27,239 nt of DNA from a virus. How positions within the stretch are numbered: position 1 is the first letter of the stretch; the number at the start of each line of letters is the position of its first letter. Positions 5,868 to 25,108 of this stretch are shown here, one piece after another. The position numbers and the translations under genes are program-made. The notes below the pieces were generated by a model that saw only the letters and a program-made list of their open reading frames with translations, ran no database searches and had not been told where the DNA came from. The stretch lies in IMG/VR virus record IMGVR_UViG_3300032287_001043, positions 1 to 27,239 of that record, one strand, 5' to 3'.

Positions 5868-6613
5868 CTCTCTTAATTGACGCTGACTGGCTGATCTACT
5901 CCGCCTGCTCTGCATGTGAGTGCGACATCAGGTGGGATGAATGGATCCACACCCTGCACCTTGAACCAGCTGACGTCTATGCGTTTATCGGCAACAGGGT
6001 TGAGGAATGGAAGAACATCACCAACCACAAGGACGTGGTCATGTGCTTCTCTGACTACCCTTCCTTCCGCTATTCCCTGTACCCCGAGTACAAAGCAAAC
6101 AGGGTTGGCAAGCGGAAGCCACTCGGCTTGCGTGATCTTCGGATGTGGGTGCAGCAGCGCTACGAAACCCGCACCATGTTCGGGCTTGAGGGGGACGACG
6201 TCCTTGCGGTCCTGGCAACCAATGGTGCGTACACCTCGCCGATCATCATCTCTCCTGACAAGGACATGAGGACGGTGCCTTGCCAGCTGCTGGCCAAGGA
6301 CACTGTTGAGTCCATCACCAAGGAAGAGGCCATGCGCAGCTGGATGCTGCAGACCTTGACCGGTGATCAGTCAGACAACTACCCCGGCATCAAGGGGTGC
6401 GGTCCAGTCAAGGCCGACAAGATCCTTGGTGATGAGCAAGACCCCATGAAGATGTGGACGTTGGTCCTCGAGGCGTACCGCAAGGCAGGCCTCACCTTTG
6501 CCGATGCCCTGCTCAACGCCAGACTGGCCAGGATCCTGCGTCATGGTGATTACGATTGCCACAGTGGTGAGATCGACCTTTGGGATCCGTCCCACCTGCT
6601 GAGGAATCAATGA
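5864..6613 (+). CDS. gp6: 5'-3' exonuclease (T7 gp6, FEN-like)
   Basis: This 249-residue nuclease (T7 gp6 is 300) would remove RNA primers and degrade host DNA from 5' ends. FEN-family features are visible: N-terminal LLIDADWLIY with metal ligands D6 and D8, FRYSLYPEYKANR, the acidic GLEGDDVLAV, SPDKDM, and LTGDQSDNYPGIKG leading into a helix-hairpin-helix (GCGPVKADKIL). It starts at ATG 5864, overlapping the gp4 stop by 4 nt, and its stop overlaps the next ATG by 4 nt. In T7, gene 5 sits between gp4 and gp6; here the two genes are fused end to start with nothing between. Confidence 0.95.
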   Translation: MTLLIDADWLIYSACSACECDIRWDEWIHTLHLEPADVYAFIGNRVEEWKNITNHKDVVMCFSDYPSFRYSLYPEYKANRVGKRKPLGLRDLRMWVQQRYETRTMFGLEGDDVLAVLATNGAYTSPIIISPDKDMRTVPCQLLAKDTVESITKEEAMRSWMLQTLTGDQSDNYPGIKGCGPVKADKILGDEQDPMKMWTLVLEAYRKAGLTFADALLNARLARILRHGDYDCHSGEIDLWDPSHLLRNQ

Positions 6614-6792
6614 ACCCAGAAGACCTGTATCCCACAGTCGAGAAGGCTTGGCTTGATCGTCTCGAGGAAACCTTCCCTGAGCGATGCCCAGATGAAAGCT
6701 GGACTGATCGCCAGATTTGGATTTATGTGGGACAACGCAACGTGGTTCGCATGTTGCAGGCCATTTACATTGAACAGCAGAACGAGGCTTGA
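6610..6792 (+). CDS. Small acidic protein between exonuclease and gp7.3-like gene, 60 aa
   Basis: The start ATG 6610 overlaps the exonuclease stop (ATGA) and follows a TGAGGA Shine-Dalgarno-like sequence about 6 nt upstream. This is preferred over an in-frame GTG at 6580. The 60 residues (MNPEDLYPTVEKAWL...IEQQNEA) form two probable amphipathic helices, the first acidic, with no catalytic motif. T7 encodes small proteins gp6.5 and gp6.7 in this interval, but I cannot show homology. Function unknown. Confidence 0.7.
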   Translation: MNPEDLYPTVEKAWLDRLEETFPERCPDESWTDRQIWIYVGQRNVVRMLQAIYIEQQNEA

Positions 6793-6795
6793 CCC

Positions 6796-7110
6796 ATGTG
6801 CTTTGGCGGCGGCGGAGCTCCCCCTGACAACTCGGCAGCACTGAACCTGCAACGGGAACAGATCGCTCAACAGCAACAGCAGTTCGAGCGGCAGATGGCC
6901 GTTCAGCAGGTCCAGTACGACGAGCAGCGGAGGATCGCAGCAGCACCTCCGCCGCCCGCCCCCAACCCCATGGCGTCTGCTGCTGCCCCAGCAATCCAAG
7001 GATCCACTGCTGGCACCATGCTCCCCACCCGGGTTGGCGCTGGTCGCCGGGCCCTGCGGACTGACATCACTGGTGTTGGCACGGGTGGCCTCAGCATCCC
7101 TGGAGCCTGA
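6796..7110 (+). CDS. gp7.3: gp7.3-like virion/tail assembly protein
   Basis: This 104-residue protein has a short N-terminal cap (MCFGGGGAPPDN), a Gln-rich coiled-coil-like helix (about residues 15-50), a Pro/Ala linker, and a C-terminus GRRALRTDITG...GGLSIPGA. That C-terminal pattern resembles the GRKKAR...SLSV...GGGINI end of T7 gp7.3 (99 aa), a virion protein needed for tail assembly, and the position just before the portal agrees. It lacks the Lys-rich N-terminus of T7 gp7.3. It begins 3 nt after the previous stop (TGA CCC ATG) and shares one base with the portal start. Confidence 0.65.
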   Translation: MCFGGGGAPPDNSAALNLQREQIAQQQQQFERQMAVQQVQYDEQRRIAAAPPPPAPNPMASAAAPAIQGSTAGTMLPTRVGAGRRALRTDITGVGTGGLSIPGA

Positions 7111-8858
7111 TGGAACTCAACCTGACCAACAGTGTCGACAAGCAATCCAAGCCCTATGGGGGCGAGGAGGAGGGCACTGCTGCGGCTCGATACCACCAGC
7201 TGGTCACCAACCGTGACGCCTACCTCGAGCGGGCACGGGATTGCAGCAAGGTCACCATCCCCTCTCTGATCCCTGATCAGAACTTCGGGGACCGTGGCCG
7301 ACTGAAGACCCCGTACCAATCGCTTGGCGCTCGGGGTGTGAACTACCTGGCCAGCAAACTGCTGATCACCCTGTTCCCACCCAACGCTGCGTTCTTCAAG
7401 CTGGAGATTGACGACCTCGCTCTGCGAGTTTCTGACACTGACCCGGCCATCAAGACAGAGCTGGACACGGCGCTGGTCCGAGTGGAACGGGCCATCATGT
7501 CTGTGCTTGAGGTGGCCAATGGCCGGGCCTCGATGCACGAAGCCTTCAAGCACCTGTTGGTCGGTGGCAACGTCCTGCTGTACGTCGCGCAAGACGGCAT
7601 CAGGGTGATCCACTTCAGCCGCTACGTCCTGTGTCGTGACCCCATGGGGAACGTCACCGAGATCGTGGTGGAGGAGGAGGTCTACCCCGAGGCCCTGCCC
7701 TCTGACTTCCTGCCTGAGGACACCGAGGACGAGGAGTACCGGTCCGGCCAGAAGACCATCCGCCTCTACACCTATGTGGAGTTCGAGGACGGCAAGTGCC
7801 ATTGGTGGCAGGAGGCCAAGGGCAAGGAGATCCCCGGCACTCACGGCATGTGTGATGAGGACGTGTCTCCTTGGATCCCACTCCGCTTCAACCGGGTGGA
7901 CTCTGAGGAGTACGGCCGCTCCTACATCGAGGAGTATTACGGGGATCTGCTGGCCCTCGAGTCCCTGTATCAGGCGGTGCTGGAGGGATCAGCTGCTGCG
8001 GCGAAGATCCTGTTCCTGGTCAATCCCAACGGAACCACCAGGCCCCGCACCCTGCAGAACGCCGCCAACGGAGCGATCGTCCAAGGCAATGCAGCGGACG
8101 TCAGTGTCATCCAGAGCCAGAAGGCTCAGGACCTGTCGATCGCACAGAACACCATCGACCGGATTGAAGGCCGACTGCAGTTTGCCTTCCTGCTGAACAC
8201 CGCCATCCAACGCCCGGGTGAACGAGTGACGGCAGAGGAGATCCGGTTCATGAGTCAGGAGCTGGAGGCTGGCATCGGCGGTCTCTATTCGATCCTGACC
8301 CAGGAGCTCCAGCTCCCCTTGGTGCGTCGGTTGATGCATGTTCTGCATAAACAGCGGAAGCTCCCTGCCTTTCCGAAGTCATCGGAAGGTGGCAAGGATC
8401 TCGTCAACCCCAGGCCGGTCACCGGTCTCGAGGCCATCGGTCGAGGTGACGATAGCAACAAGCTGGTGGAGTTCATCACCACCGCGCAACAAGTACTTGG
8501 CCCCGAGATCATGGCCAAGTACATCAACGTCGATGAAGCACTGCGTCGCCTTGCGGCCAGCAATAGCATCGACACCACCAACCTGGTCAAATCCAAAGAG
8601 CAGTTGCAGGGTGAAGCAGCGCAAGCTGCAGCAGCCCAACAGCAGCAGTCTCAGCAGGAGATGATCACCAACGCTCTGTCGTCACCAGCAATGGCGCAGG
8701 CAGCCAAGAACTACACCGCACCTGGAGCTCCCTATGGTCCGCAGAACACCCCAGATGGACTCAACACAGTCCTCCCAACCACGGCAAGCGTCACCGGAGG
8801 AGCAGCCCCTGTCCCTGGTGGGCCCCCCGGCGAAGGTGCCCCAACCCCAGCCGGTTGA
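7110..8858 (+). CDS. gp8: Portal (head-tail connector) protein, T7 gp8
   Basis: This 582-residue protein (T7 gp8 is 536) would form the dodecameric portal for DNA packaging and tail attachment. Blocks matching T7 include LGARGVNYLASKLL.TLFP, VGGNVLLY, EEYGRSYIEEYYGDL, RPGERVTAEEIRFMSQELE, GGLYSILTQELQLPLVRRL and VTGLEAIGRGDD. The Gln-rich stretch after about residue 490 and the Pro/Gly-rich end (GGPPGEGAPTPAG) are longer than in T7 and probably disordered. It starts in a TGATG overlap with gp7.3, preceded by TGGAG. Its last 125 nt are overlapped in another frame by a small gene. Confidence 0.96.
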   Translation: MELNLTNSVDKQSKPYGGEEEGTAAARYHQLVTNRDAYLERARDCSKVTIPSLIPDQNFGDRGRLKTPYQSLGARGVNYLASKLLITLFPPNAAFFKLEIDDLALRVSDTDPAIKTELDTALVRVERAIMSVLEVANGRASMHEAFKHLLVGGNVLLYVAQDGIRVIHFSRYVLCRDPMGNVTEIVVEEEVYPEALPSDFLPEDTEDEEYRSGQKTIRLYTYVEFEDGKCHWWQEAKGKEIPGTHGMCDEDVSPWIPLRFNRVDSEEYGRSYIEEYYGDLLALESLYQAVLEGSAAAAKILFLVNPNGTTRPRTLQNAANGAIVQGNAADVSVIQSQKAQDLSIAQNTIDRIEGRLQFAFLLNTAIQRPGERVTAEEIRFMSQELEAGIGGLYSILTQELQLPLVRRLMHVLHKQRKLPAFPKSSEGGKDLVNPRPVTGLEAIGRGDDSNKLVEFITTAQQVLGPEIMAKYINVDEALRRLAASNSIDTTNLVKSKEQLQGEAAQAAAAQQQQSQQEMITNALSSPAMAQAAKNYTAPGAPYGPQNTPDGLNTVLPTTASVTGGAAPVPGGPPGEGAPTPAG

Positions 8859-9987: not shown

Positions 9988-10971
9988 ATGGCTGCACCTA
10001 CCTTTGACGCTTCCAGGCTTGGCCTGGTCAACAACGCCGGTGGTGGTACCTGGGCAGGCGACAACGCTCTGTTCCTCCAGGTCTTCGCTGGTGAAGTGCT
10101 GACTGCTTTCCGCAAGGCCACCATCTTCGAGGCCCTGCACAGTGTCCGCACCATCAGCTCCGGCAAGAGCGCCAGTTTCCCGATCATCGGTCTCAACAGT
10201 GCTGCGTATCACACGCCCGGCACGATGATGACCGGCACCCAGATGAAGCACGCTGAGGCTGTCATCAAGATCGACGACAAGCTGGTGTCGAACGTCTTCA
10301 TCGCCGACATCGACGAAGCGAAGAACCATTACGACGTCCGCTCTCCCTACTCCGGGGAGATGGGCAATGCTCTGGCCTACACGTTTGACAAGAACGTGGC
10401 TGCCACCATCGCCAAGGCCGCTCGTACCGCCACCAACTTCAACACCGATCTGCCCGGCGGCACCCGCATCAAGATCGTTGCTGCCTCCAAGAGCGCCATC
10501 ACCGGCTCTCAACTGGCTGCTGCACTCTTCAGTGCTGCCACTCAGATGGATGTGAACAACCTGCCTGAGAACGATCGCTATTGCGTCCTGGCTCCGGCCG
10601 AGTACTACAAGCTCGTCCAGACCACCGACGTGATCAACCGTGATTGGGGCGGTGCTGGTGCCTATGCCGACGGCACCGTCCTGCGGGTCGCTGGCATCAC
10701 CATCCTCAAGTCGAACCACCTGCCCACCACCAACCGGTCCACCACTACCGGTGAGCAGAACGACTACACCGGCAACTTCACTGACTGCGTGGCCCTTACC
10801 TTCAACAAGCAAGCGGTCGGCACTGTGAAGCTGATGGACCTGAAGATGGAGCAGACTGGCTCTGACGTTCACGCCCTCTGGCAGGGCACCTTCATGGTGG
10901 CCAGCATGGCCCTTGGCACCGGGGTTCTTCGCCCTGACTGCGCCGTGGAGATCTACACCGCCACCAGCTGA
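9988..10971 (+). CDS. gp10: Major capsid protein (T7 gp10A)
   Basis: This 327-residue protein (T7 gp10A is 345) forms the icosahedral shell with an HK97-type fold. Conserved blocks include LFLQVFAGEVLTAFRKA, VRTISSGKSASFPIIG, AAYHTPG, NHYDVRSPYSGEMG, then QAVGTVKLMDLKME and GTGVLRP near the C-terminus, all aligned in order with T7. It is the only structural gene with its own long leader, flanked by a terminator and candidate promoter upstream and a strong hairpin downstream, as expected for the most highly expressed gene. I see no slippery site or downstream frame that would give a T7-like gp10B. Confidence 0.97.
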   Translation: MAAPTFDASRLGLVNNAGGGTWAGDNALFLQVFAGEVLTAFRKATIFEALHSVRTISSGKSASFPIIGLNSAAYHTPGTMMTGTQMKHAEAVIKIDDKLVSNVFIADIDEAKNHYDVRSPYSGEMGNALAYTFDKNVAATIAKAARTATNFNTDLPGGTRIKIVAASKSAITGSQLAAALFSAATQMDVNNLPENDRYCVLAPAEYYKLVQTTDVINRDWGGAGAYADGTVLRVAGITILKSNHLPTTNRSTTTGEQNDYTGNFTDCVALTFNKQAVGTVKLMDLKMEQTGSDVHALWQGTFMVASMALGTGVLRPDCAVEIYTATS

Positions 10972-10982
10972 CGGTTGACCTT

Positions 10983-11000
10983 GGGGCCCTTCGGGGCCCC
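10983..11000 (+). terminator. Perfect GC hairpin after capsid gene (T-phi position)
   Basis: GGGGCCC pairs with GGGCCCC around a TTCG tetraloop closed by C-G, an exceptionally stable RNA hairpin, 12 nt after the capsid stop. The following bases are TCCCCCTTTCC, so the U tract is poor. T7 has its main late terminator (T-phi) at the same place. It may act as a partial terminator, or as a 3' mRNA stabiliser or processing boundary. The gp11 ribosome binding site (CGGAG, 11011-11015) lies just downstream. Confidence 0.6.
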
Positions 11001-11021
11001 TCCCCCTTTCCGGAGTCCACC

Positions 11022-11630
11022 ATGACCCTTGCTCGCACCACCTTCCTGGAGGCCGTGAACCGAGTCCTTCAGATGATGGGGGAAGCTCCGGTCAATGGCT
11101 TGGATGGCCAGTACGGCCTGGCCCAGCAGGCCCAGACGATGCTCAACGAGATCAGCCGACGGATCCAGTCGGAAGGCTGGTCGTTCAATACAGACTTCGA
11201 GTTCACCCTGATGAGGGACGCCGTCACCGGTGAGATTGCGGTGGGCGCCAACGTCAGCAAAGTGGTCATCGACCCCTACAACTACACGAACCTGGACGTG
11301 GTTCAGCGTGGGAGTCGGCTCTACGACAGGCGCAACAACACCTACTCCTTTGATGCCGACCTGAAGGCAGACATCACCTACATCCTCGAGTGGGAGGAGC
11401 TCCCCGAGTACGCCCTGGAATACATCACCACCAAGGCTGGTCGTCACCTGCAGGAGGCGATCCTTGGCAGTGCTGACCTGACCCGGATCAACATGTCCGC
11501 AGAGGCTGAAGCCCGGTCTGCGTTCCTCGAGCAAGAGATGAGCGTCAGCCAACCCAACATGCTGAGAGGGAACCCCAACCACACTGGGGTCTTCATGACC
11601 TTCATGCCCAGTCGGGCACTGCAGCGTTGA
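11022..11630 (+). CDS. gp11: Tail tubular protein A / adaptor (T7 gp11)
   Basis: This 202-residue protein (T7 gp11 is 196) forms the ring joining portal to nozzle. Family features are the N-terminal FLEAVNRVLQMMGEAPVN, then MLNEISRRIQSEGWSFNT, IDPYNY.NLDVVQRGSRLYDRRN, and Y.LEWEELPEYALEYI...AGRHLQ. It starts at ATG 11022 with CGGAG 7 nt upstream. It follows the capsid gene and hairpin as in T7 and is 3 nt from gp12. Confidence 0.95.
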   Translation: MTLARTTFLEAVNRVLQMMGEAPVNGLDGQYGLAQQAQTMLNEISRRIQSEGWSFNTDFEFTLMRDAVTGEIAVGANVSKVVIDPYNYTNLDVVQRGSRLYDRRNNTYSFDADLKADITYILEWEELPEYALEYITTKAGRHLQEAILGSADLTRINMSAEAEARSAFLEQEMSVSQPNMLRGNPNHTGVFMTFMPSRALQR

Positions 11631-11633
11631 ACC

Positions 11634-14285
11634 ATGCCACTTATCAGCAGCTCCATCCCCAACCTGATCAATGGGGTCAGTCAGCAACCTGCTGCACTGC
11701 GCCTGGCCAGTCAGGCCGAGCAGGTTGTCAACTGCCTGCCAAGCCCGGTGGAGGGACTGCGGAAGCGGCCACCCAGCAACCACATCGCCAAGCTGTTCAA
11801 TGGCACCGCTGGCACCGGTCGCCCCTTCACCACGATCGTTGACCGAGACGGGGTGATTCGGTACCTGATCTTGATTCAGGACAACGCCATCAAGGTCTTC
11901 GGGTTGGACGGGTCAGTCAAGACGGTGGCCACCCCTGACGGCACGTCCTACCTGGACATTGTTGGCGAGCCAAGCAACGTGTTCCGAGTGGCATCGGTTG
12001 CGGACTACACCTTCATCGTCAACCGAGAGAAGACGGTGGCGATGAGCGCGACGACGTCCCCGACATGGGGCACCAAGTCGATGGTATTCATCCGGTCGGC
12101 CGAGTACGCCACCACCTACAGCATCACCGTCAACAGCACGACGGTCAGCTACACCACGCTTCCGGCTGGCGGCAAGAGCATCGCTGCGTCCTACGCCCGG
12201 GCAAGCAACACCGTCACTGTGACCTGCACGGCGGCCCATGGCTTGGCTACCGGCAACCAGGTTGACATGACCTTCCAGTCGGGTTCTGGCACGGCTGGCA
12301 CATTCACGATTACCGTCACCAGCTCTACAGTCTTCACTTACACAGACCCAGTCGGTGGTACGACGTCAGGAAATTGCACGATTGTTTATCAACCAAACTA
12401 CTCACCAAGTACAACGGAGATTGCATCGGCACTGGGTACGTCGCTTGCTACGGCATTGGGCGGAAGCTGGACTGTCACTAGCAGCTCAAGTGCTTACGTT
12501 GTAAGGATTGCCAAGAATGATGGCACTGACTACACACTGAGCTCTTTGGACACAAAGACAGGTCTCGCCAGCGTGGCCGTCAAAGGTTCGATTGACTCCA
12601 TCTCTGATCTTCCAACCACTGCAGAACATGGATTCATCGTCAAGATCCAAGGGTCGGTATCAACAGGGTTGGATGATTACTACGTTCAGTTTGTAGCAAA
12701 CTCTGGATCTGGCTTTGGTCATGGCATCTGGCAGGAGACGGTGGCCCCTGGCATCCAGTACCTGTTCGACGCCACGACCATGCCGCATGTGCTGGTCCGG
12801 GAGAACGACGGCACCTTCACCTTCAGAAAGTTCACCTGGTCTGGTCGCATTGCCGGGGATGCTTCGACCGCCGCAAACCCCAGCTTCGTCGGCAGCAAGA
12901 TCCAGAACATCAACCTGTTCCGCAACCGGCTGGTCTTCCTTGCGGATGAGAGCGTCATCCTGTCGACCACCGATGCCTACGACCGGTTCTGGCCGGAGAC
13001 GGTGCAGACGGTGGTTGACAGTGACCCGATCGACTTGCTGGCCGGTGGTCGGAAGATCAACTTCCTGATCAGCAGCCTGGCCTTTGCCAACACCCTGCTG
13101 CTCTTCAGTCGCCACGGCCAGTTCCGCCTGGACAGCGGCGCATCGGTTGGTTCAAGCCTCACACCCAAGACAGCCAACATCACGCTGGTCACCACCTTCG
13201 AGATGCTGGACAACGTCGACCCGGTAGGTGTCGGCCGCACCATCTATTTCGCCATCCCCAAGGGGGACTACAGCGGGCTGAGGGAGTTCTTCCTGCCGGA
13301 TGCCAGCGGCCCGGTTCCCCTTTCGGAAGAGGTGACGTCCTCAGTTCCCAAGTACCTTCCCCTGAATCTGTCCACGCTGGTGGCATCGGTCTCCGAGGAG
13401 GCCATGCTGCTGATCGGCAAGGACCAACCCAAGCGGCTCTACCTCTACAAGTTCTATTTCGAGGACGACAAGAAGCTCCAATCCTCCTGGTCCTATTGGG
13501 AGTTCACCAGCTCCAAGACCGTGATCGGTGCGGACATGATCGACAGCGATCTGTACGTCGTCGTCGAGTACAGCAATGGGGTCTACCTCGAGAGGATTCA
13601 GACGCGCCCGGACAACGTGGACAGCGGCAGCACCATTGAGATCGGCCTGGACCGCAAGGCAAGTGAAGCCAGCTGCTCTGTGGCACTGACCAACCCTGCT
13701 GGTCTCGATGTCCAGAGCACCATCACCCTGCCGTACCCGATCGCCAGCGGGAGCTCCATGGTGGTGGTCGGTCGGTTCTATGCAGGCAACACCCTGCAGC
13801 ATGGGCAGGTTCTGGTTCCGATCAGTCAGACGACGTCCGGTGGTGCTGGTGGCAACGGCACCCTTGTGGTCCGTGGTGATCTGACGGCTGCCAAGTTCTT
13901 CGTTGGCGAGACCTACGAGATGCTCTACCAGTTCTCCACCCAGTTCCTGAAGGAGCAACCGCCGGGTGGTGGCATGGCAGTGATCGGTGGGCCCAAGCTG
14001 CAGCTGCGGACCTGGACCCTGGTCTTCGACAAGACCAGCCACTTCAACCTGAAGGTGACTCCCCGCAACCGCGATACCTACACCTACCCGTACAACGGGA
14101 CAGAGATCGGTGACTCCGAGATCAGCATTGGCGAGGTGGGCCTGCGAACGGGATCCTTCAGAGTTCCAGTGATGGCCCAGAATGTTGATGCCAGAATCGA
14201 AATCACCAGCAGCAGTCCGCTGCCGTGTCGGATTCAGTCAGCCGAATGGGAAGGATGGTATCACTCCAGAGCAGCCCGCCTGTAA
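11634..14285 (+). CDS. gp12: Tail tubular protein B / nozzle (T7 gp12)
   Basis: This 883-residue protein (T7 gp12 is 794) forms the tail nozzle. Family blocks include the N-terminal LINGVSQQPAALRLASQAEQ.VNCLPSPVEGL.KRPP, then RNRLVFLADESVILSTTDAYDRFWPETV and DNVDPVGVGRTIYFAIPKGDYSGLREFF. Between about residues 155 and 345 it carries extra beta-rich sequence, including a repeat-type block around VTCTAAHGLATGNQVDMTF (near residues 187-245) of a kind found in many phage tail proteins. The second half of this insert (about 12300-12715) is lower in GC than its surroundings. It starts 3 nt after gp11 with no Shine-Dalgarno sequence and overlaps gp13 by about 30 nt. Confidence 0.95.
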   Translation: MPLISSSIPNLINGVSQQPAALRLASQAEQVVNCLPSPVEGLRKRPPSNHIAKLFNGTAGTGRPFTTIVDRDGVIRYLILIQDNAIKVFGLDGSVKTVATPDGTSYLDIVGEPSNVFRVASVADYTFIVNREKTVAMSATTSPTWGTKSMVFIRSAEYATTYSITVNSTTVSYTTLPAGGKSIAASYARASNTVTVTCTAAHGLATGNQVDMTFQSGSGTAGTFTITVTSSTVFTYTDPVGGTTSGNCTIVYQPNYSPSTTEIASALGTSLATALGGSWTVTSSSSAYVVRIAKNDGTDYTLSSLDTKTGLASVAVKGSIDSISDLPTTAEHGFIVKIQGSVSTGLDDYYVQFVANSGSGFGHGIWQETVAPGIQYLFDATTMPHVLVRENDGTFTFRKFTWSGRIAGDASTAANPSFVGSKIQNINLFRNRLVFLADESVILSTTDAYDRFWPETVQTVVDSDPIDLLAGGRKINFLISSLAFANTLLLFSRHGQFRLDSGASVGSSLTPKTANITLVTTFEMLDNVDPVGVGRTIYFAIPKGDYSGLREFFLPDASGPVPLSEEVTSSVPKYLPLNLSTLVASVSEEAMLLIGKDQPKRLYLYKFYFEDDKKLQSSWSYWEFTSSKTVIGADMIDSDLYVVVEYSNGVYLERIQTRPDNVDSGSTIEIGLDRKASEASCSVALTNPAGLDVQSTITLPYPIASGSSMVVVGRFYAGNTLQHGQVLVPISQTTSGGAGGNGTLVVRGDLTAAKFFVGETYEMLYQFSTQFLKEQPPGGGMAVIGGPKLQLRTWTLVFDKTSHFNLKVTPRNRDTYTYPYNGTEIGDSEISIGEVGLRTGSFRVPVMAQNVDARIEITSSSPLPCRIQSAEWEGWYHSRAARL

Positions 14286-14755
14286 CCGCTCACTGTCGAC
14301 GCACTCAGCCGTCTGACATCCGCGTCGTTGCCGACAACATGCGGGCAGAGGACGTGGCAGAAGTCAAGGCCCACTCAGGATTGGATCCTGACCAGGCCTT
14401 GCTGCTGTCCTACTTCCACAGTGAACCCTGCCTGTCGATTGTCAGCCGTCACGGCGACGTCATCGGCATGTGGGGTGTGGTTCCGCAGGAGGACAGGACA
14501 GGAAGGATCTGGATGCTTGGGACTGATGCGATGCTTGATGATCCCCAAGATCGACGCACCTTTCTTCGGCAGTCGAAGGAGGTGCTGCGTGAACTCCATC
14601 ACCAGTTCATTCTTCTCTTCAACGAAGTCGACGCAAGGAACACTGTTCACATCCGCTGGTTGCGATGGATGGGCTTTACGTTCGTCCGGTATCGCCCAAA
14701 CTATGGGACAGAGGGACAGCCTTTTTACGAATTTTGCAAGGTGAGCCATGTGTAG
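14255..14755 (+). CDS. gp13: Internal virion protein gp13-like (GNAT-like fold)
   Basis: This product is about 166 residues (T7 gp13 is 138). The best match is the C-terminal half: WMLGTDAML, a helix RRTFLRQSKEVLREL, NTVHIRWLRWMGFTFVRY and GQPFYEFCK, matching the T7 gp13 pattern of W.VTSDQVWRL, NTSHIRFLKTIGA and GQFQLFTITK. The pattern resembles an acetyltransferase fold, but no activity is implied; T7 gp13 is needed for assembly of infective virions. The start is uncertain: ATG 14255, ATG 14246 and GTG 14225 are all inside gp12, and homology seems to begin only near SDIRVVADNM (about 14318). The gene overlaps gp14 by 8 nt. Confidence 0.8.
   Translation: MVSLQSSPPVTAHCRRTQPSDIRVVADNMRAEDVAEVKAHSGLDPDQALLLSYFHSEPCLSIVSRHGDVIGMWGVVPQEDRTGRIWMLGTDAMLDDPQDRRTFLRQSKEVLRELHHQFILLFNEVDARNTVHIRWLRWMGFTFVRYRPNYGTEGQPFYEFCKVSHV
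14277..14295 (+). promoter_or_regulatory. Candidate phage promoter at gp12/gp13 junction
   Basis: CGCCTGTAACCGCTCACTG straddles the gp12 stop and shares 15 of 19 bases, including an unbroken CCGCTCACTG, with the site before the capsid gene. T7 has promoter phi13 at this junction. It lies within the 5' coding part of gp13, so it would have to serve gp14 onwards, or gp13 would start later. Confidence 0.3.
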
Positions 14756-15473: not shown

Positions 15474-18185
15474 ATGGCCAAGCTCAGCACCGGTGCTTCC
15501 TATGGGGACACCAACAAGCAGACGTCTCAGCGGCTTGTAGGGGCTGCTGAGCAAACAGCGGTCGGCGGGGAGCTGGCTAGGCAGCAGATGGCGCAAGCTG
15601 CTCTCCAACCTGCTGCGTCACCGGTCAACACTTTCCAGCAGGTGGGTGCTCCCACCCTTGGAGGGCCGGTCAAGTTCTTCGGACCGCCTGACCTGCCACC
15701 GCCCAGTCAGGATCTGGCCAATCTGGCTAAGTCACTGGGCGGGTTCAGCTCCACCTTGAGTGAGGTCGGTGACTTCCTTGCCAAGAAGCAGGAGTACGAC
15801 CAGAAGCAAGCTGAGCTTGATACCCAGCAGATCTCGACGGCACTGTCAACTGCATTCCCGGGTCAGCAGTTCGCTCAGATCCGGGACTCCCTGTACCGAC
15901 AGGCGACAGCAGGCGATGAAAATGCCCGGGCACAGTACGAATACCTGCAGGGCCTGAACCCCTTGCGCTTGGCTTGGGTCCAGCGAACCCTTGCAAGATC
16001 CGTCTATCGCCAAGCGATTGCGACTGGACTCGAGCGGTGGCAGCAGATGCCCACGGTGCCGGGCCCAGACGGCAAACCAGTTCCAGTTGAGCAACTGAAG
16101 AACGGAGACCCGTTGCTGCTTCGAGCATGGAGCGGATTGCTGCCGACGATCAACGATCCAGTTGTCGCCAAGGAGTTTGAGGCCCAGTCGTATGGCCTGT
16201 TCCAGCAACTGAATGCTGCACAGGGCAAGCTCGTCACCAAGGCGGAGGAACGCCAAGCATTTGCCGCCGCCCAGCAAACCGTGAGGGACATCCTCAACCC
16301 CGGGATGTCAGTCGAGCAAGCGCGGATGGCCCTTGAGGCGATGACGCTTGGCTTCAGGCAGTCAATCGGACCAGAGACGTATCAAAAGCTGATTGAAGGG
16401 TTGCCGGGCATGTTTTATGCATCACAAAGCCTGCTCTCCAAGGACACCGTCAACCCAGAACTTGCACAGAGAATTGAAACCCTTCTGAAGACAACTGTCG
16501 TTGGGGCCAATGGTCAAACTATTAGCGATCGTCTTGGCGAAAACGGAGGGGACAGGCTCACTGTTGACATCACCAAGAATGCAATGCAGAGCACAAGGGA
16601 GTGGATGGCAAATGTGCAAACGACAGCAGACTATGACGCAAAACTTGTTGCCACAAATCTTGTCGAGCAACAAGGACTAAGACAGCCGGGCCTGTCACCA
16701 GTTGAACTACGCAAGCGCATTGACGAAGGACGTCAGTCAATTATCGCTACAACACCTGATCCAGTGTTGCGAGCATCAAGGCTGTCGGCCTACAACGCTC
16801 AGGTGGCTGGGGTTGAAGAAGCTTTCCTGAAACCAAGGCAACGCGAGCTTGAAATACAGGCTGACGCGATTACATACAATTCAAGCCTGACTGCACAACA
16901 GAAGCAGAAACAGCTTGACGCACTCATTCTCCAAGGAATGGATCCACTGTCCGTTCAAAGGTATCGCTCAGATATTGAGCGAGACGCCAAGACCGAAGGG
17001 ATTCCTGATGCCAAGGAGCGCGAACGCAACATCACGGATCAGGTGAAGGCCCTGACCGAGTTCCTGAAGGCGGGAGAAGGTGGCCTGACCGTTGGAGAGC
17101 GCAATGAGATCGCCAAGTACGAACGGGACATGCGGGCCAACATTGCCCAGCTGGATCGAGCAGGACAGGCCAAGGGTCTTGCTCCTGAACAGATCAGAGA
17201 GAGCGTCAACAAATACTTTGAAAGAATGAGGACTGACTTCAACAACAGGGTTAATGATCAAAGGTTGCAGACCTTGGTTCCACTTGTTCCCAGCGTCGAC
17301 AATTACCAAACAGCTGGTCCCAGCTTGAGACAACGCCTGACGGCAGCTGTCACCGTCACTCCGATCCTTCCAGAAGAAGTCTTCAAGCAGGAGTTGGGCA
17401 ATGCCTACCAGAACAACACCATCTCCCCTGGAATGCGTCAGCTGATCAAGGATGCCGGGTACGCCGGGCGAGCCGGAGACTTCTTCAAGGCCCAGTGGAA
17501 GACCCTGTACCGGGACGGCAGGCAGATGCCACCGGAGATGCTGCAGCGTCTTGACGTGATCAACCAGCACACACTGAGCTTTGCCGCTCCAACAGCTCCG
17601 GTTCAGGCTGGCATGAGCCCTCGAGCGACTCACGTCAACGACGTCGCAAGCATCCTCAGGGGCATGGCCAACCAAGGAGTGAATACCTTGATTGGCGGAG
17701 CTTCAGCTGCCACCCGGGAGGGAGGTGGTGAGATGGGTTACACCGGCACTCCTCCGGTCGGCACTCGCAATGCCGTCATCTCTGTCGCCAGCAAACTTGG
17801 AGTTGATCCGATCTGGTTGGCGGCCGTAATCTCAAAAGAAACAGGCGGGACCTTCAACAAAGACATTCGAGGAGGGGAAGGAGGCAACTACAGAGGGTTG
17901 ATTCAATTTGGCCCAAGCGAAAGAAGGACGTATGGCTATCGAGATGGAATGAGTTTTGAAGAGCAAATGGTTGGTCCGGTCTACCGCTACCTCAAAGCCA
18001 GGGGCGTCCGCCCGGGACACACCGCAAAGGAAATCTATGCAGCTATCTTGACTGGCAACGTCTCCACCCTTTCAACAAACGGTTTGGATCGGAGAGACAG
18101 CTTTGGGACCACAGTGCGAAACTCGCTACCAGGACTCACCAGTGGTGGCCACTACAGAAACGCAAGACGTTTCCTTGGTCTCTGA
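15474..18185 (+). CDS. gp15: Internal virion protein at gp15 position with C-terminal lytic transglycosylase-like domain
   Basis: This 903-residue protein (T7 gp15 is 747) lies between gp14 and the gp16-position giant. Residues 1-750 are Gln-rich and helical, as expected for a gp15-type ejectosome tube protein, though I cannot align them firmly with T7. The last 150 residues look like an SLT/lysozyme-type murein hydrolase: ASKLGVDPIWLAAVISKETGG with likely catalytic E789, then GLIQFGP (808-814), YGYRDGMSFEEQMVGPVYRYL and a helical end. In T7 the transglycosylase is the N-terminal domain of gp16. It begins after TAA CCC ATG with no Shine-Dalgarno sequence. GC falls between about 16400 and 17030 and again from about 17830. 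Confidence 0.85.
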   Translation: MAKLSTGASYGDTNKQTSQRLVGAAEQTAVGGELARQQMAQAALQPAASPVNTFQQVGAPTLGGPVKFFGPPDLPPPSQDLANLAKSLGGFSSTLSEVGDFLAKKQEYDQKQAELDTQQISTALSTAFPGQQFAQIRDSLYRQATAGDENARAQYEYLQGLNPLRLAWVQRTLARSVYRQAIATGLERWQQMPTVPGPDGKPVPVEQLKNGDPLLLRAWSGLLPTINDPVVAKEFEAQSYGLFQQLNAAQGKLVTKAEERQAFAAAQQTVRDILNPGMSVEQARMALEAMTLGFRQSIGPETYQKLIEGLPGMFYASQSLLSKDTVNPELAQRIETLLKTTVVGANGQTISDRLGENGGDRLTVDITKNAMQSTREWMANVQTTADYDAKLVATNLVEQQGLRQPGLSPVELRKRIDEGRQSIIATTPDPVLRASRLSAYNAQVAGVEEAFLKPRQRELEIQADAITYNSSLTAQQKQKQLDALILQGMDPLSVQRYRSDIERDAKTEGIPDAKERERNITDQVKALTEFLKAGEGGLTVGERNEIAKYERDMRANIAQLDRAGQAKGLAPEQIRESVNKYFERMRTDFNNRVNDQRLQTLVPLVPSVDNYQTAGPSLRQRLTAAVTVTPILPEEVFKQELGNAYQNNTISPGMRQLIKDAGYAGRAGDFFKAQWKTLYRDGRQMPPEMLQRLDVINQHTLSFAAPTAPVQAGMSPRATHVNDVASILRGMANQGVNTLIGGASAATREGGGEMGYTGTPPVGTRNAVISVASKLGVDPIWLAAVISKETGGTFNKDIRGGEGGNYRGLIQFGPSERRTYGYRDGMSFEEQMVGPVYRYLKARGVRPGHTAKEIYAAILTGNVSTLSTNGLDRRDSFGTTVRNSLPGLTSGGHYRNARRFLGL

Positions 18186-18232: not shown

Positions 18233-21200
18233 ATGCCCGGTTTCTCTTTCCAGAAGGGCCCTGACGGCAAGTACGTCACGACCTTTGATGGCCCTGCCTA
18301 CCAAGGCAACGAGCCACTGAAGAGCCCGGGCGCGAGCACTGCTCCTGCTCCTGCTCCTGTGCGACAAGCTGGCGCACCGTCAGCTATGACCATGCCAGAC
18401 CCAGGTCGTGTGCTGAACACGATTGGCTCGATGTTTGGCGGGCCTGCGGGTCAAACGATGCCAATGATCCTTGGCGGGATCGAAGGCGCCCAGACCCTGA
18501 TGAAGACTGGTGACGTCGGCCAGGCTTGGAAGAAGGGCACGGCAAGGACAGCCAGCCTCCTCGAAGACAGCCTCCCATCGCCACTGGGCATGGGTGCAAT
18601 GACTCCTGCGCGGATCGGCTACAACGCCACCCGCAACTTCTACCAAAGTGTCTTTGGCAACCTGCCTGCCTCGGGAAGCAGGAAGCCAGGCCAGGCCGAC
18701 TCACCCATTCTTGGGTTCATTCCTCCATTGCCCAAGGCAAAGAGCACGGGGCCAATTGAGGACATGGCGACTGACCTGCTTCAAATGGGCCAAGGCATTG
18801 CTGCCGCTGTCGTTGCCACAAGGGTTGGTGGTGCAGCGCTTGGCGCAGTTCCCGGGGGAGCCACTATTCTTGGCGGCCTTGCTGCGGCAGGTCGGGTCCC
18901 GGCAGCCTTGCGGACCATGGCAGCTGCCACCGAAGGGGTTGGCGGTGTCAGTGGTGCCCTGAATGCAGCAGCAAACGTCGCCCGTGTCACGCAGATCGCA
19001 ACCCAAGGCGGCGCTATTGGCGGCCTTGCTAACTACGCCGCCTTCACCCCAGAGGAGCAAACACAGGCCGATCAGTGGCTTGGATGGGCCAAGGGATCCA
19101 ACTGGCTGCCGCTGCAGGAGTACATCTTCAGCAAGCCCGGAGACACGGAAGCAGACGCAAGGTGGAAGAACGCTGTCTTCAACCTGCCGATTGATGCTTC
19201 GATGAACCTGGGCCTTCATGCCCTTGGCATTGCTGCGAAGGTCGCCATCAGTCGGCTTCGTGGCAGCGCACTGGAGAAGGCTTTCCAAGGCTTTGAGGCG
19301 CAGCGAACAAAGAATCCAAACGTTCCTGCTGGCCAGCAAACGGTTGACGTCACTGCTCAGCCTGTTGCTGAGCCTGTTGCGCCCCCTGCTCCTGCCCCTG
19401 CGGCTCCTGCCCCCACCGCTCCAGCTCCAAGCTTTGTCCCCGTCCCCCCTACGCCTCAGCAGCAGGCCCGGATTGACATTGCCCAGCAGGGCTACAACAC
19501 GGCCAAGGCGAAACTGGATGCCATTGGCCCTGAGCCCCCCAAGCCCAGCACTGAAAAGGTGCGCTTTGGTCCCAATGGCATCGCTGGTGCAGATCCGGCT
19601 GCTGTTGCCAAGTGGAAAGCGGAAACACGGGCCTACCAGAGCTGGAGCCGCAAGTACCTGAAACTCAAAAAGGAGGAGGTGTCAGCGTCCAACCTTCTGT
19701 TTGACGCCAAGAAGGAAACGCAGATAGTCACTCCTTCCAAGGACTTCTGGCCGTGGAACGACGCAGCTCCCACTCCTGCTGCTCCGACTGCAGCTGACGT
19801 CAATCGAGCAGTTGACAATGCGGCCACCAAACTGGCTCACCTGAGTGGGACTGTTCCCACGGAGATGGGACCCGTCACTTCAGAGACACGAGGTTCTTGG
19901 CGGCCATCGTTTAATCAGCTCCAAGAGCGGTCTGTCTCCGACCTGTCCACCGATCCCCAGCGCCTGCAGTACAAGGAGGCTGGCCAGCTTGCTGAGGGTG
20001 GTGTCACCGGAACGCTGAAGGATGTCAACGTCTACAACCCGCTCCTCGCTAAGCCCATCAGCGTCTGGACGGATCCGGTTGACGGCAAGCTCTATGTCGT
20101 CAATGGCCACAACCAACTGGACCTGGCCAAGCGAGCAGGTTCCGAAAGGGTTCTGACGTGGGAGATCCAAGCCTCAACTGCTGAGGAGGCCCGGGCGATC
20201 GGTGCCATTGAGAACATGGCCGCCGGTCAAGGGACTGCGCTTGATGCCGCCAAGGTCATCCGTGACATGGGCATCACCGGCGAGGAGCTCAAGACCCGTG
20301 GTGTCGACCTGAATGCACCGATCACCAAGGACGCCATGGCGTTGGCGCAGCTGCCTCAGCAGACCTTCAACAAGGTGGTGGCTGGCAAGCTCGACCTCGA
20401 CAAGGCGATTGCCCTGGGTAGCAAGGAGCCAACTCCTGCCGCACCCGTGGTTCAGGCAGCCCCCACTGGCAACGTCACGGTGATCCCTTTGGAGGAGACG
20501 TCACCCACGACGGTCGTCCCTCCAGTGGCAGCACCGGAGATTCAGATCCCACTCGACGCTTCACGTCCCCTTCCCCCGGGCAGCCCAAGGGTCGACACCG
20601 TGTCTCAGAGCATCTCGAGGTGGCTGGGCATCGGCCAGGAGGAAGCTCGCAACCTGCTGCTGACAAAGGGTGAAGTGCTGGACGTCACCAGGGTTCCCGG
20701 GATCGACCTGGAGAAAGCCCTGGATGACGCTGCCATGGGTCGGACGTCACCAGAAACCCAGGCGATCACCAGGGCTTACCAGCAGTTCTACGGTCCCAGC
20801 TCACGGCAGCAACAAGAGGAGATGCTGTCCCTCGTGAACCGAGTTGACGGGGCCATGCCTGATGAGCTCCCCGAAAGCATGAGGGTGGATCCAGAGATCG
20901 CTGCCGCCGTCAAGGAGGCGATGATGGACACCGTCCGTCGCATTGCCGGTGACGACATTGCCTTCATTTTTGAAGAAGGCATGGCCAAAAAGCCGGGCAC
21001 TCGGGCTCATGGCACCCAAGGCCAGGTGCGGCGGACCCTTGGCAACTACCGCGTCAACTCCGTTGGAATCATTGAAGACGGAGATCCAATTCAAGAGATT
21101 GTCCAGTTCAATGAAATGGGTTGGTTGCGCTACGAAGGCCAGTCCATGATCGACTGGACGCAGCAAAACCTGGCAACAGCAGCACACGAAGCGTTCCACA

Positions 21201-24200
21201 TTGTCCAGAATCGCTATCTCTCAAGCAAGCAGCTTGATGTGCTGGACAACGTTTTCGCCAGGATCAGACTGTATAGGATGACGGAGAAAAACATACGAAA
21301 AGCAGCGGAGCGAAAAGCCATTGGGGCCCAACCGCAGATGCCAATTGAACTGCAGCCACAAGCGTTTGAAGGGTTTGACCAAGCACGCAGAGAAGGTGTT
21401 TCACCGGCTCATGTCATTCTTGGCATGAACAAGGAAGACGTTGAGATGTTCAAGGAAGTTGCTGCAGACCGCAACAGCCCAGCCGCCAGAAGGCTTGCTG
21501 CCAAGTTCGGGGAACTGATTTTCTCCGCAGTCAAGATCCTTGACAATCTGGCCGACTTTGCTGAGAAACTTTGGAACACTTTCCGTGGTCGTGGGTGGAC
21601 GTCAATTCGAGACATCTTCTCCCAAGCTGCTGCTGGTGAACTGAAAGTGTCTGGCGCCGCTCGTGGCAATGTTTATGACCTGTACCAGGTAGCAGGTGAT
21701 TTCAAGAATGCAACCGACGAAGGGAACAAGGAATGGGGACGAAGAGTCCGCGCTCTTCTGAAGCAGGGATCCCCCTACGAGACCCTTCGTTTTGTCGGTG
21801 AAAGCGAAGGACTCTTCAGCGAACTTGCTTCGGAGGCTGGCCCTCCTCGCACTCCACCCACTCCACCCATGCCTGATGGCCCGGGCAACGAGAACTGGGC
21901 CACCCGGTTTGCCAAGGTCCTGGCTGAGAACGAGGCAGCCCTGAAGAGCGGTGACATCACCATGGAGGAGCTCTACGTCCTCAACCGGATGCAGAAGACG
22001 GAGAGCCCATCAGGTAGCCAGGTCTACACCGCCAAGAGCCAGGAGCTGATCCCGGGCTATGCGGCAATGAGTCAGGTGCTTCCCGATCGCCCGACTGCCA
22101 CCGGTTACCCGATCTTCAACGGGCCAGAGATCGTCGCCAAGAACCAGGCGTGGTTTGACATCCATGGATGGGACGGCAAGGCAATCATGGCTGGTATCAG
22201 CTCCCTCCAGCAGGGCTTCAGGGGCCATGAGATGGGCGCCCTGAACCGCGCCATGTCCTATGCCGACATGCTGCAGAAGGAGGCCCAGATCCAGGCTGCT
22301 CAGTGGCTGAACAGTGTTGGCAGTGGCACCGTCAACAAGTCAGAGCGACTGACGGCACTGATCATTGCAGCTGACAATGCTCGCCGGATTCACCTGGCCA
22401 TTGCCAACGTGACTCGTCCTTGGGGTCAAGCTGGTGCAGAGATGCAGCTGCCCCGGGACTACCAAGTTTCGGCCAACGTCATTGAGACACCGGCTGGCGT
22501 GGAGCCTCCTCCGTCGATGATCCAGCAGCAGATCAACCAAGAGTTGGCGCAAGGAGATGCCAACCCCAACGCCGTGTTCGAGGAGATCACTGACGTCCTC
22601 GACCCGGAACTGACTCATGCCGCCAAGGGTGGTGAAATCACTCCTCAAGCGGAAGCAGCAGCTGATGCCTTGGCTGAGTTCATCAATAGCGGTGGCGTCG
22701 ATCCCACGATCCGTACTGGCGTGTGGCAAGACCTGGCCAACGTCAGCTCCGCCAAGCCCGGCATCAAGGCTGGTGTTGTTGGCGCAACGGGTGACAACCC
22801 TCTGACGATGCTGCGGGTCAACAACCTGATCTCGTCTGGTGAAACATTCAACACCAACTTCATCAACGGCCTATTCAACACTGCGCGTTTTACTGCTGCC
22901 CAAGGAATTGGCGCACTTGCTGAAGGCGATCTTGACAGGATGCTTTACAGCGCAACCATGTTCTCCACGGCTTTTGCCAACATTCCCAACGCATTGCGCT
23001 TGGCTGGTCACGCAATCAAGGCAGGAAAACCGCTGTTCAATCTGTCGTCTGGTGTCGTTGACAGGTATCAAAAAGCAGCACTCCAGGATGCGTTGAGTGG
23101 CGGTCCTGCTTCGGCAGATCCAAACGCAAAGACTGGGTGGACGCTCACAACTATGAATCTTGGTGAGCAGTTTGCCAAGACACCCACCGGCCAGGCCCTG
23201 AACTGGCTTTGGGGAACGGTTGGAACCGGTGCATCCCGCATTGCTGTTGGCCTCGACACCTTCAACGCGACGCTGGCCGGTCATGCCTTTGAGCACTTCA
23301 ATCACTTGCCACGGGGCATGGAACTGGCGGTTGAGAACGGACTGCGGAAGTACACTCCAGAAGCTTTTGCGTATGCCACCAACTACGCCAAGGCCCGGGT
23401 GAAGGCTTCACTGCAGGACGCAATCATCAACGGCAAAACCATTGCCGATGCGGTGATGACCAGCAAGGACGCTCAGAAGTTCATGGACGCAGTCAATTTC
23501 ACTGAGGATCTGCGGGTCAAGATGGAGCCGAGGACTCTTGCCGAGGGAATGCGCCTTGGCGAATCTCGCGGACTCAAGGGCGACGAGCTCACCAAGTACG
23601 CGCAAGAGTACGTCAATACCGCAAACTGGGAGCACAAGGTTGCCACCATGGGCCACGATGTACTTGGCCCGGTCGCCAATGTGCCTGGCGAAATCTTGAC
23701 GGCATTGTCAAATGCCGGTCCACTTGTTGGCCCAGTGTTTAGGTTTATCCAGCCTTTTACAAGGGTTCCAGCAAACATATTCAAGGAGTCACTCCGATCA
23801 ACTCCTGGTCTCAACTTGTTTGTTGATAGTTTTTACCGTGACATCACGAGTGAAAACCCAGCGATGCGTCAACGAGCCAATGGCGAGTGGTTGCTGGGTG
23901 GAGCTGTAATTTCTACTGCCGTCATAGCCACCACTTTGGGCTTGATTCGATTCAACGGAAATGGACCCACAGATCCAATTGCAAAAGAAAAATGGTTGAC
24001 GGATAGGAAAATGCCAAACTCAATTCAGTTTTGGGATGAGTCCATCAAGGGCTGGGGACCCGCTATTTCCATGAGGGCCTTTGAGCCGTACTCAACCTTG
24101 CTTTCTGCGATTGGCGACTACAACGATGTAGCAGCTGGCTTAACAACAGAGCAAAGGACACGGCTTGGATCAGCTCTTGTGTTTGACGTGCTTCGCATGC

Positions 24201-25108
24201 AAGCGCTTGGCCTTCTGAACAAGACCTATTTCCAAGGAATCAACGAGTTGTATCAAGCGGCGTTTGATCCAAGCAAAGTCATGACTGGTCCTTCCAGTCG
24301 GAACTCAATGACCAGACTGTTGGAGCGGTTGGTCGCATCCATGCAGCCATGGAGCTCTGCAATGCGAAGTGCCAGAAGGCAGGTTGATCCCATTGCCCGC
24401 AGTGTCGATCCAGCCGAGACAGGCAATTTCGTCATGGACTTCTTCAAGGAGACCATGGACGAGATCAGAAATCAAACCCCTGGCCCGTCCTTTGCTCTCG
24501 CTGGTCGCCGGGACTGGTCGTTACCGGGTGCTCCGTACGTGACGGTGCCTCAGATCCTTGGCAGTGAGGTCGTCAGGGACAACCCGTTCCTGGTTGGGTC
24601 AATGCAGTTCACCCCGTTCTCAATCATGCGGGTGTCGGATGGCCCCACTGATCCAGTGCAACGGGAGATGTCCACGCTTTACGGCAAGGGCACGGCCTTC
24701 AGTGGGCCCAGGGCCGCCGACTTTGGCCCCGAACTGCGCCTGACACCCACTGAGCTGTCCGAGTACCAGCTGGCCTTTGGGACGGTTAGGGACGCCGAGG
24801 GCTTCACCTGGTACGAGCGCATGTCCGAGATGATCAACTCACCCAGCTACATGGCACTGCCCGTTGAGGCCCCCTCGAGCACCACGGTCAGCGAACGGGC
24901 GGCTCGTATCCAGATTCAAATCGACAAGTTCAAGAAGCTCGCCAAGGAGGAGTACAAGCTGACAACCGAGAAGGGCCGACAGATCACCGCTGAACAGCTG
25001 CGAGCAGAGCAGCGGAAGCAGGAAGTCCTGTTTGGGCGGCAGTATGGTACCTCTAACGCTCCGCAACCCGGCGGCGCTGAGCGCTTTGTTCGGGAGATGA
25101 ACCCCTGA
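18233..25108 (+). CDS. gp16: Giant ejection protein at gp16 position with ParB-like and zinc-metallopeptidase-like regions
   Basis: The protein has 2291 residues (T7 gp16 is 1318). Residues 1-340 contain small-residue hydrophobic stretches (AAAVVATRVGGAALGAVPGG near 187-210). Residues about 370-410 are a Pro/Ala linker. Residues about 575-690 look ParB-like: PISVWTDPVDGKLYVVNGHN (NGHN at 624-627), LAKRAG, then ARAIGAIENMAAGQG. Residues about 900-1000 lead to HEAFH (H985, E986, H989), a zincin motif, followed by a helical segment with FRGRGWTSIRDIFSQAAAGEL, a pattern I associate with phage polyvalent proteins. The C-terminal half is helical, with PFTRVPANIFKESLRSTPG and one likely membrane helix (LLGGAVISTAVIATTLG, about 1887-1903). 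By position it is the inner-membrane/DNA-translocating ejectosome component. The T7 N-terminal transglycosylase is missing. Several internal patches are low in GC. It ends in a TGATG overlap with the fibre. Confidence 0.85.
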   Translation: MPGFSFQKGPDGKYVTTFDGPAYQGNEPLKSPGASTAPAPAPVRQAGAPSAMTMPDPGRVLNTIGSMFGGPAGQTMPMILGGIEGAQTLMKTGDVGQAWKKGTARTASLLEDSLPSPLGMGAMTPARIGYNATRNFYQSVFGNLPASGSRKPGQADSPILGFIPPLPKAKSTGPIEDMATDLLQMGQGIAAAVVATRVGGAALGAVPGGATILGGLAAAGRVPAALRTMAAATEGVGGVSGALNAAANVARVTQIATQGGAIGGLANYAAFTPEEQTQADQWLGWAKGSNWLPLQEYIFSKPGDTEADARWKNAVFNLPIDASMNLGLHALGIAAKVAISRLRGSALEKAFQGFEAQRTKNPNVPAGQQTVDVTAQPVAEPVAPPAPAPAAPAPTAPAPSFVPVPPTPQQQARIDIAQQGYNTAKAKLDAIGPEPPKPSTEKVRFGPNGIAGADPAAVAKWKAETRAYQSWSRKYLKLKKEEVSASNLLFDAKKETQIVTPSKDFWPWNDAAPTPAAPTAADVNRAVDNAATKLAHLSGTVPTEMGPVTSETRGSWRPSFNQLQERSVSDLSTDPQRLQYKEAGQLAEGGVTGTLKDVNVYNPLLAKPISVWTDPVDGKLYVVNGHNQLDLAKRAGSERVLTWEIQASTAEEARAIGAIENMAAGQGTALDAAKVIRDMGITGEELKTRGVDLNAPITKDAMALAQLPQQTFNKVVAGKLDLDKAIALGSKEPTPAAPVVQAAPTGNVTVIPLEETSPTTVVPPVAAPEIQIPLDASRPLPPGSPRVDTVSQSISRWLGIGQEEARNLLLTKGEVLDVTRVPGIDLEKALDDAAMGRTSPETQAITRAYQQFYGPSSRQQQEEMLSLVNRVDGAMPDELPESMRVDPEIAAAVKEAMMDTVRRIAGDDIAFIFEEGMAKKPGTRAHGTQGQVRRTLGNYRVNSVGIIEDGDPIQEIVQFNEMGWLRYEGQSMIDWTQQNLATAAHEAFHIVQNRYLSSKQLDVLDNVFARIRLYRMTEKNIRKAAERKAIGAQPQMPIELQPQAFEGFDQARREGVSPAHVILGMNKEDVEMFKEVAADRNSPAARRLAAKFGELIFSAVKILDNLADFAEKLWNTFRGRGWTSIRDIFSQAAAGELKVSGAARGNVYDLYQVAGDFKNATDEGNKEWGRRVRALLKQGSPYETLRFVGESEGLFSELASEAGPPRTPPTPPMPDGPGNENWATRFAKVLAENEAALKSGDITMEELYVLNRMQKTESPSGSQVYTAKSQELIPGYAAMSQVLPDRPTATGYPIFNGPEIVAKNQAWFDIHGWDGKAIMAGISSLQQGFRGHEMGALNRAMSYADMLQKEAQIQAAQWLNSVGSGTVNKSERLTALIIAADNARRIHLAIANVTRPWGQAGAEMQLPRDYQVSANVIETPAGVEPPPSMIQQQINQELAQGDANPNAVFEEITDVLDPELTHAAKGGEITPQAEAAADALAEFINSGGVDPTIRTGVWQDLANVSSAKPGIKAGVVGATGDNPLTMLRVNNLISSGETFNTNFINGLFNTARFTAAQGIGALAEGDLDRMLYSATMFSTAFANIPNALRLAGHAIKAGKPLFNLSSGVVDRYQKAALQDALSGGPASADPNAKTGWTLTTMNLGEQFAKTPTGQALNWLWGTVGTGASRIAVGLDTFNATLAGHAFEHFNHLPRGMELAVENGLRKYTPEAFAYATNYAKARVKASLQDAIINGKTIADAVMTSKDAQKFMDAVNFTEDLRVKMEPRTLAEGMRLGESRGLKGDELTKYAQEYVNTANWEHKVATMGHDVLGPVANVPGEILTALSNAGPLVGPVFRFIQPFTRVPANIFKESLRSTPGLNLFVDSFYRDITSENPAMRQRANGEWLLGGAVISTAVIATTLGLIRFNGNGPTDPIAKEKWLTDRKMPNSIQFWDESIKGWGPAISMRAFEPYSTLLSAIGDYNDVAAGLTTEQRTRLGSALVFDVLRMQALGLLNKTYFQGINELYQAAFDPSKVMTGPSSRNSMTRLLERLVASMQPWSSAMRSARRQVDPIARSVDPAETGNFVMDFFKETMDEIRNQTPGPSFALAGRRDWSLPGAPYVTVPQILGSEVVRDNPFLVGSMQFTPFSIMRVSDGPTDPVQREMSTLYGKGTAFSGPRAADFGPELRLTPTELSEYQLAFGTVRDAEGFTWYERMSEMINSPSYMALPVEAPSSTTVSERAARIQIQIDKFKKLAKEEYKLTTEKGRQITAEQLRAEQRKQEVLFGRQYGTSNAPQPGGAERFVREMNP

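Follow-up and report, generated by a model that had tools for sequence, protein, structure and literature searches.

A predicted zincin metallopeptidase domain carried with a ParB-like domain in the cassette of a gp16-position protein of a T7-like phage

Computational analysis of the window, a stretch of 27,239 nucleotides of viral DNA (IMG/VR record IMGVR_UViG_3300032287_001043, positions 1 to 27,239), revealed a zincin domain with intact zinc ligands that lies in a cassette of the protein at the gp16 position. What we consider new is a zincin clade that is not covered by any Pfam or PHROG model and that gp16-position proteins of T7-like phages carry as a cassette. Our best explanation as a whole, a polyvalent gp16-position protein with a cassette and a zincin that acts as a protease in cis, has in our judgement an even chance of being correct.

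Gene position and parts of the protein

The late region of the window is T7-like. It contains genes for RNAP, helicase-primase, portal (head-tail connector), scaffold, capsid, adaptor, nozzle and a gp14-like protein, then an ORF of 903 aa, an ORF of 2291 aa and a T7-type tail fibre. Because of this gene order the 2291-aa ORF was assigned to the gp16 position. Like polyvalent proteins it is encoded amid virion structural genes and unites two disparate domains, a ParB fold and a zincin, in one ORF. Its gene position and the analogy to T7 and N4 led us to expect that it enters the virion together with the other internal proteins and that its ejection into the host comes early; that it is virion cargo appears very likely. 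The parts of the protein are listed with their positions in the window.

18233..25108, + strand: giant ejection (gp16-position) polyvalent protein of 2291 aa without cysteine; ORF between the ORF following the gp14-like gene and the tail fibre
18233..19357, + strand: N-terminal part of the core, about residues 1-375, common to relatives without the ParB and zincin modules (alignment)
19934..20422, + strand: ParB-like domain, residues 568-730, motif NGHNQ and not NGHNR (AlphaFold model and Foldseek match 6t1f)
20891..21643, + strand: predicted zincin metallopeptidase domain, about residues 887-1137 (conservation, model, structure matches)
21185..21199, + strand: HEAFH, predicted zinc-binding and catalytic motif, residues 985-989 (invariant in 46/46)
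21347..21349, + strand: E1039, most likely the third zinc ligand, motif E-x-Q-x-x-A-F (invariant in 32/32 and 46/46; in the next helix of the model)
21575..21643, + strand: segment N1115...GRGWTSIRDIF...G1135, C-terminal signature of the zincin clade (conservation)
21842..21883, + strand: proline-rich linker, residues 1204-1217 (homology to module-less relatives restarts at residue 1219-1222)
21896..25105, + strand: C-terminal core of the ejection protein (residues 1222-2291), encoded by its own downstream gene in split relatives

In the preceding gp15-position protein (ORF 15474-18185) the C-terminal part (window 17766-18062, residues 765-863) matched PHROG profiles named 'peptidase' and 'baseplate hub'. 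A cell-wall enzyme may reside there rather than in the gp16-position protein.

The zincin and the ParB-like domain

The original prediction of a zinc-metallopeptidase motif at H985-E986-A-F-H989 was correct. HEAFH is located at residues 985-989 (window 21185-21199) within NLATAAHEAFHIVQNRYL and is the sole HExxH of the 2291-aa protein; when its sequence was shuffled 2000 times, any HExxH arose in just 0.6% of cases. Relatives of the protein are ULF50148.1 from Prochlorococcus phage P-SCSP1u and BAQ94395.1 from the uncultured marine phage MedDCM-OCT-S31-C1 (S31-C1), both annotated as hypothetical, and their HExxH (HESFH 1204 and HESWH 1263, respectively) aligned with HEAFH of the window.

Conservation of H985, E986 and H989 in homologues had been proposed as a check of the motif. 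In the relatives from the first searches, with near-identical sequences removed, these three residues and E1039 were all kept (32/32). Because the query of these searches included HExxH, the conservation was examined anew with two queries devoid of it, the C-terminal core and the second gene of the split relatives described below. All four residues were invariant in 45/45 zincin-bearing relatives recruited in this way, or 46/46 counting the window protein; the 45 relatives were chosen by a domain profile and are somewhat biased to intact copies, with no degenerate HExxH among them.

A third zinc ligand had been suspected near FKEVAAD, which is located at residue 1073. The glutamate of this motif (E1075) is present in only 4/46 sequences and was ruled out, whereas E1039 is found in 46/46. 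In zincins the third ligand is expected in the helix that comes after the one with HExxH, and E1039 is placed there by the model (model helix 183-199). Thus alignment and model point to E1039 as the most likely third ligand. Zinc would be bound via H985, H989 and E1039 with E986 as the general base, and going by the conserved residues and the predicted fold the domain is probably catalytically competent.

Next we consider the fold. The AlphaFold2 model of residues 855-1160, calculated with 30 sequences, had a pLDDT of 81.9 and a pTM of 0.80. It shows an N-terminal helix, strands, the HExxH helix and then the E1039-bearing helix, which is the layout of zincins. A Foldseek search of the PDB with the domain model gave no match at E<=0.001. 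In VIA structure alignments the top PDB matches were almost all zincins with Z up to 7.0, all of them in the range of common arrangements and weak if taken alone. They comprised TTHA0227 (2ejq, Z 7.0), a zincin-like protein (3e11, Z 6.5), M32 peptidases, IrrE, a DPC-repair protease and ArdC (6i89, Z 4.5), an antirestriction protein encoded by a conjugative plasmid. The zincin fold of the original prediction thus obtained moderate support from the model and the zincin-dominated VIA matches, the Foldseek E-values being not significant. Yet, because the matches are consistently zincins and the ligands are invariant, the assignment is firm, and we are highly confident that about residues 887-1137 represent a real zincin domain. 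Pfam, PHROGs and PDB sequence profiles contained no significant family for it; the nominal top Pfam match, AAA_lid_9 (0.013), was below the cut-off and was taken as chance.

The segment following the motif had been associated with phage polyvalent proteins, and this association was borne out. FRGRGWTSIRDIFSQAAAGEL begins at residue 1117, GRGxxSxxDIF is conserved in the family, and the best viral structure match of the domain was the S31-C1 homologue, which carries the name 'Large polyvalent protein associated domain'.

The predicted ParB-like region was confirmed at the level of the fold. The AlphaFold model of residues 568-730 had a pLDDT of 84.4 and matched Caulobacter ParB in Foldseek (6t1f, E 1.6e-6), i.e. 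the domain has the ParB/Srx fold that characterizes DdrB-like ParB domains. The ParB motif at window 20099-20119 (residues 623-629) reads NGHNQ in the window and in the closest relative L007/L068, and NGHNR in most relatives. Because of NGHNQ in place of NGHNR the ParB activity of the window protein is uncertain. The nucleotide site of the domain may be altered by this exchange. DdrB-like ParB domains have a conserved active-site arginine; should it correspond to the R of NGHNR, it is replaced by Q in the window and its closest relative and retained in most other relatives.

Cassettes and split genes in the relatives

Direct searches of viral contigs gave no matches, whether the query was the domain of the window, the whole protein or its N-terminal part. 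A three-sequence alignment of the proteins from the window, P-SCSP1u and S31-C1 reached 34 viral contigs, and a P-SCSP1u query yielded 28 further ones. The dereplicated full-length fused relatives (n=33, leaving out the 635-aa L078 fragment) contained ParB and zincin in 23 cases, zincin only in 4, ParB only in 2 and neither in 4. The zincin module was present in 27/33 fused ORFs, with HExxH in all 27, and absent from 6, the flanks of which still align. In module-less relatives homology to the window spans the N-terminal part, stops and restarts at residue 1219-1222; therefore the insert acts as a cassette. The position of the zincin is fixed: it follows ParB where both exist, and it is located directly ahead of the core or of the end of the first split protein. 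Relatives have either the whole module or none of it, and wherever it occurs it is intact. Thus the zincin is an accessory, and relatives without it retain the rest. The original prediction had pictured a gp16-position protein loaded with effector-type domains, and an effector-type cassette at this position is supported.

ADP-ribosyltransferase-like segments (DUF3990 / ART-PolyVal) were seen in the cassette region of relatives at L069:4977-6239, L132:2907-5126, L117:3690-5336 and L068:3369-5090. The segment in L069 matched DUF3990 with an E-value of 2.9e-6 and ART-PolyVal with 0.0033, both below the Pfam cut-offs.

A second group of phages encodes the protein by two genes with the boundary just after the zincin module, e.g. 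L028:6413-10990 and 10996-14376 or L003:6417-10871 and 10874-14311. Where the zincin is present, the first split protein ends some 180-300 residues past the HExxH. The second split protein of about 1130 aa is, along the greater part of its chain, homologous and colinear with the C-terminal region of the window protein (hhalign probability 97.9, E 4.9e-13). The zincin is intact in 18/28 dereplicated first split proteins.

The split proteins are distinguished by cysteines. Among the split relatives (L147-L210) a cysteine is found among the last four residues of the first protein in 57/57 loci, and the second has one near the N-terminus in 58/58 loci, the exact start codon being uncertain in a few. 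First split proteins end with ...GGC or ...EGC, and the product of the next gene starts with MSNCDD.... The terminal cysteine is the only cysteine in 27/28 dereplicated first split proteins, while 32/33 fused forms are cysteine-free. The P-SCSP1u protein is fused, and that of S31-C1 is a split form which is divided past the zincin and bears the terminal cysteines. A literature search on cysteines or disulfides of ejection proteins returned no relevant title, and in it we did not find the terminal-cysteine rule described. The simplest reading of the cysteine pairing would be a disulfide where the fused chain is continuous. We tentatively propose that the ParB(/zincin) protein is linked through its C-terminal cysteine to the N-terminal cysteine of the core protein by one dedicated disulfide. 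This bond would withstand the oxidising conditions of the periplasm and, upon reduction in the cytoplasm, release the payload. Fused phages would use a peptide bond instead, with the zincin as a possible release device.

Known systems and the possible role of the zincin

The original prediction spoke of an undescribed system. This applies to the clade and its setting, but not to the combination as such, because Iyer et al. described in 2017 (PMC5512222) polyvalent phage proteins in which ParB and zincin occur together and for which injection was predicted, and the ejected RNA polymerase of N4 has the same layout. Like the window protein those polyvalent proteins are large and multidomain, are encoded among virion genes and combine a ParB-superfamily domain with a zincin in which HExxH is followed, one helix further on, by a glutamate, along with variable further cargo (PMC5512222). 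The main text of that paper does not contain the term T7-like. Furthermore, the window clade has a Q three residues after HExxH in contrast to the aspartate described for one widespread phage clade (PMC5512222).

The N4 vRNAP (gp50, domains C1/C2) is an ejected giant protein analogous to gp16 with enzyme cargo, a HExxH domain of about 250 aa and a C-terminal part of about 1100 aa (PMC12633501). It is devoid of cysteine like the window protein, yet its cargo is an RNA polymerase and not ParB. Comparison with the single N4 sequence did not indicate homology (hhalign probability 1.5 for C1 and 0.1 for C2). T7 gp16 resembles the window protein in its gene position and in its expected role, that of the largest protein ejected, and is cysteine-free as well. 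It is 973 residues shorter (1318 vs 2291 aa), as anticipated by an estimate of nearly 1000, and a HExxH-ParB cassette was not recognised in it. Profile comparison of T7 gp16 with the C-terminal core found no homology (hhalign probability 0.1); the likeness is one of position. The P-SCSP1u and S31-C1 proteins share the order of ParB then zincin and the gene position with the window. In the papers on P-SCSP1u and its clade that were searched for virion mass spectrometry this term is absent.

Two observations concern the genomes at large. Family-A DNA polymerase (PF00476) had no match in window 4260-8858, the record as a whole, the records of L007, L014 and L028, or P-SCSP1u; several of the records may be fragments. 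The P-SCSP1u clade has been published as being without this enzyme (PMC9860041). ORF 3283-3915 is ssDNA-binding-protein-like, and a scan of genome contigs with it produced only two distant matches.

The mechanism we favor starts from a core, composed of about 375 N-terminal and 1070 C-terminal residues, which would hold the inserted cassette of ParB-like domain, variable linker and zincin, the latter being last and abutting the C-terminal core. The protein would be packaged and then ejected early into the host. We infer that the zincin would then act as a protease, either while the protein enters or afterwards, and most likely in cis. A cut upstream of the zincin would detach the part with ParB from the core, which would be anchored in the envelope. 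Self-processing is favored because the zincin is fixed beside the core. On the other hand, the N4 vRNAP has a HExxH domain and is packaged uncut (PMC5512222; PMC12633501), which counts against it. The precedent of P1 is ambiguous because processing was assigned to DdrB (PMC5512222), while a later virion study names DarA (PMC9024508). We rate the odds that self-processing is the main role of the zincin somewhat below even.

Alternatively, the injected zincin may be a host-directed effector that cuts one or more defence or regulatory proteins in trans early in infection. The literature offers effector action next to the processing of polyvalent proteins (PMC5512222), and a host target is favored because the presence of the zincin is patchy: all-or-none occurrence with invariant catalytic residues is the pattern of an accessory effector, and other cargo, such as the ADP-ribosyltransferase-like segment in L069, occurs in the cassette region of relatives. 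Yet a free effector would not need the fixed place of the module next to the core. We regard this possibility as real but the less probable one; the evidence is divided between self-processing and a host target, with self-processing slightly ahead.

A cut at the proline-rich linker (1204-1217) would part the cassette from the core and give fused phages the two proteins of the split phages. This is suggested by the colinearity of the second split gene with the fused C-terminal region and by the gene boundary just past the zincin domain. However, such simple self-cleavage is disfavored because the split relatives have two genes at this point and yet an intact zincin (18/28), so that the work of the zincin cannot be only to separate the halves. 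In addition, the terminal cysteines suggest that the halves are meant to remain joined. We consider this cut unlikely. Even less probable is a non-proteolytic module, in which the zinc site serves folding, assembly or scaffolding without peptide cutting. The same may hold for the uncut N4 vRNAP, but the general base E986 is invariant in 46/46 sequences, which structure alone would not require. Finally, the weak Foldseek scores might suggest that a helical region contains HExxH merely by chance, a notion refuted by the conservation (32/32; 46/46), which holds also in relatives recruited without the motif, and by structure matches filled by zincins, and one to which we give practically no credence.

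Taken together the findings widen the range of virion-borne zincin/ParB cargo to include a broad set of T7-like phages, in which the protein can be investigated in a genetically simple virion. E986 and E1039 are the exact residues with which to ask whether such zincins cut a phage protein or a host protein. The comparison of fused and split forms along with the terminal cysteines provides a testable idea of how injected cargo may stay attached and then be released.
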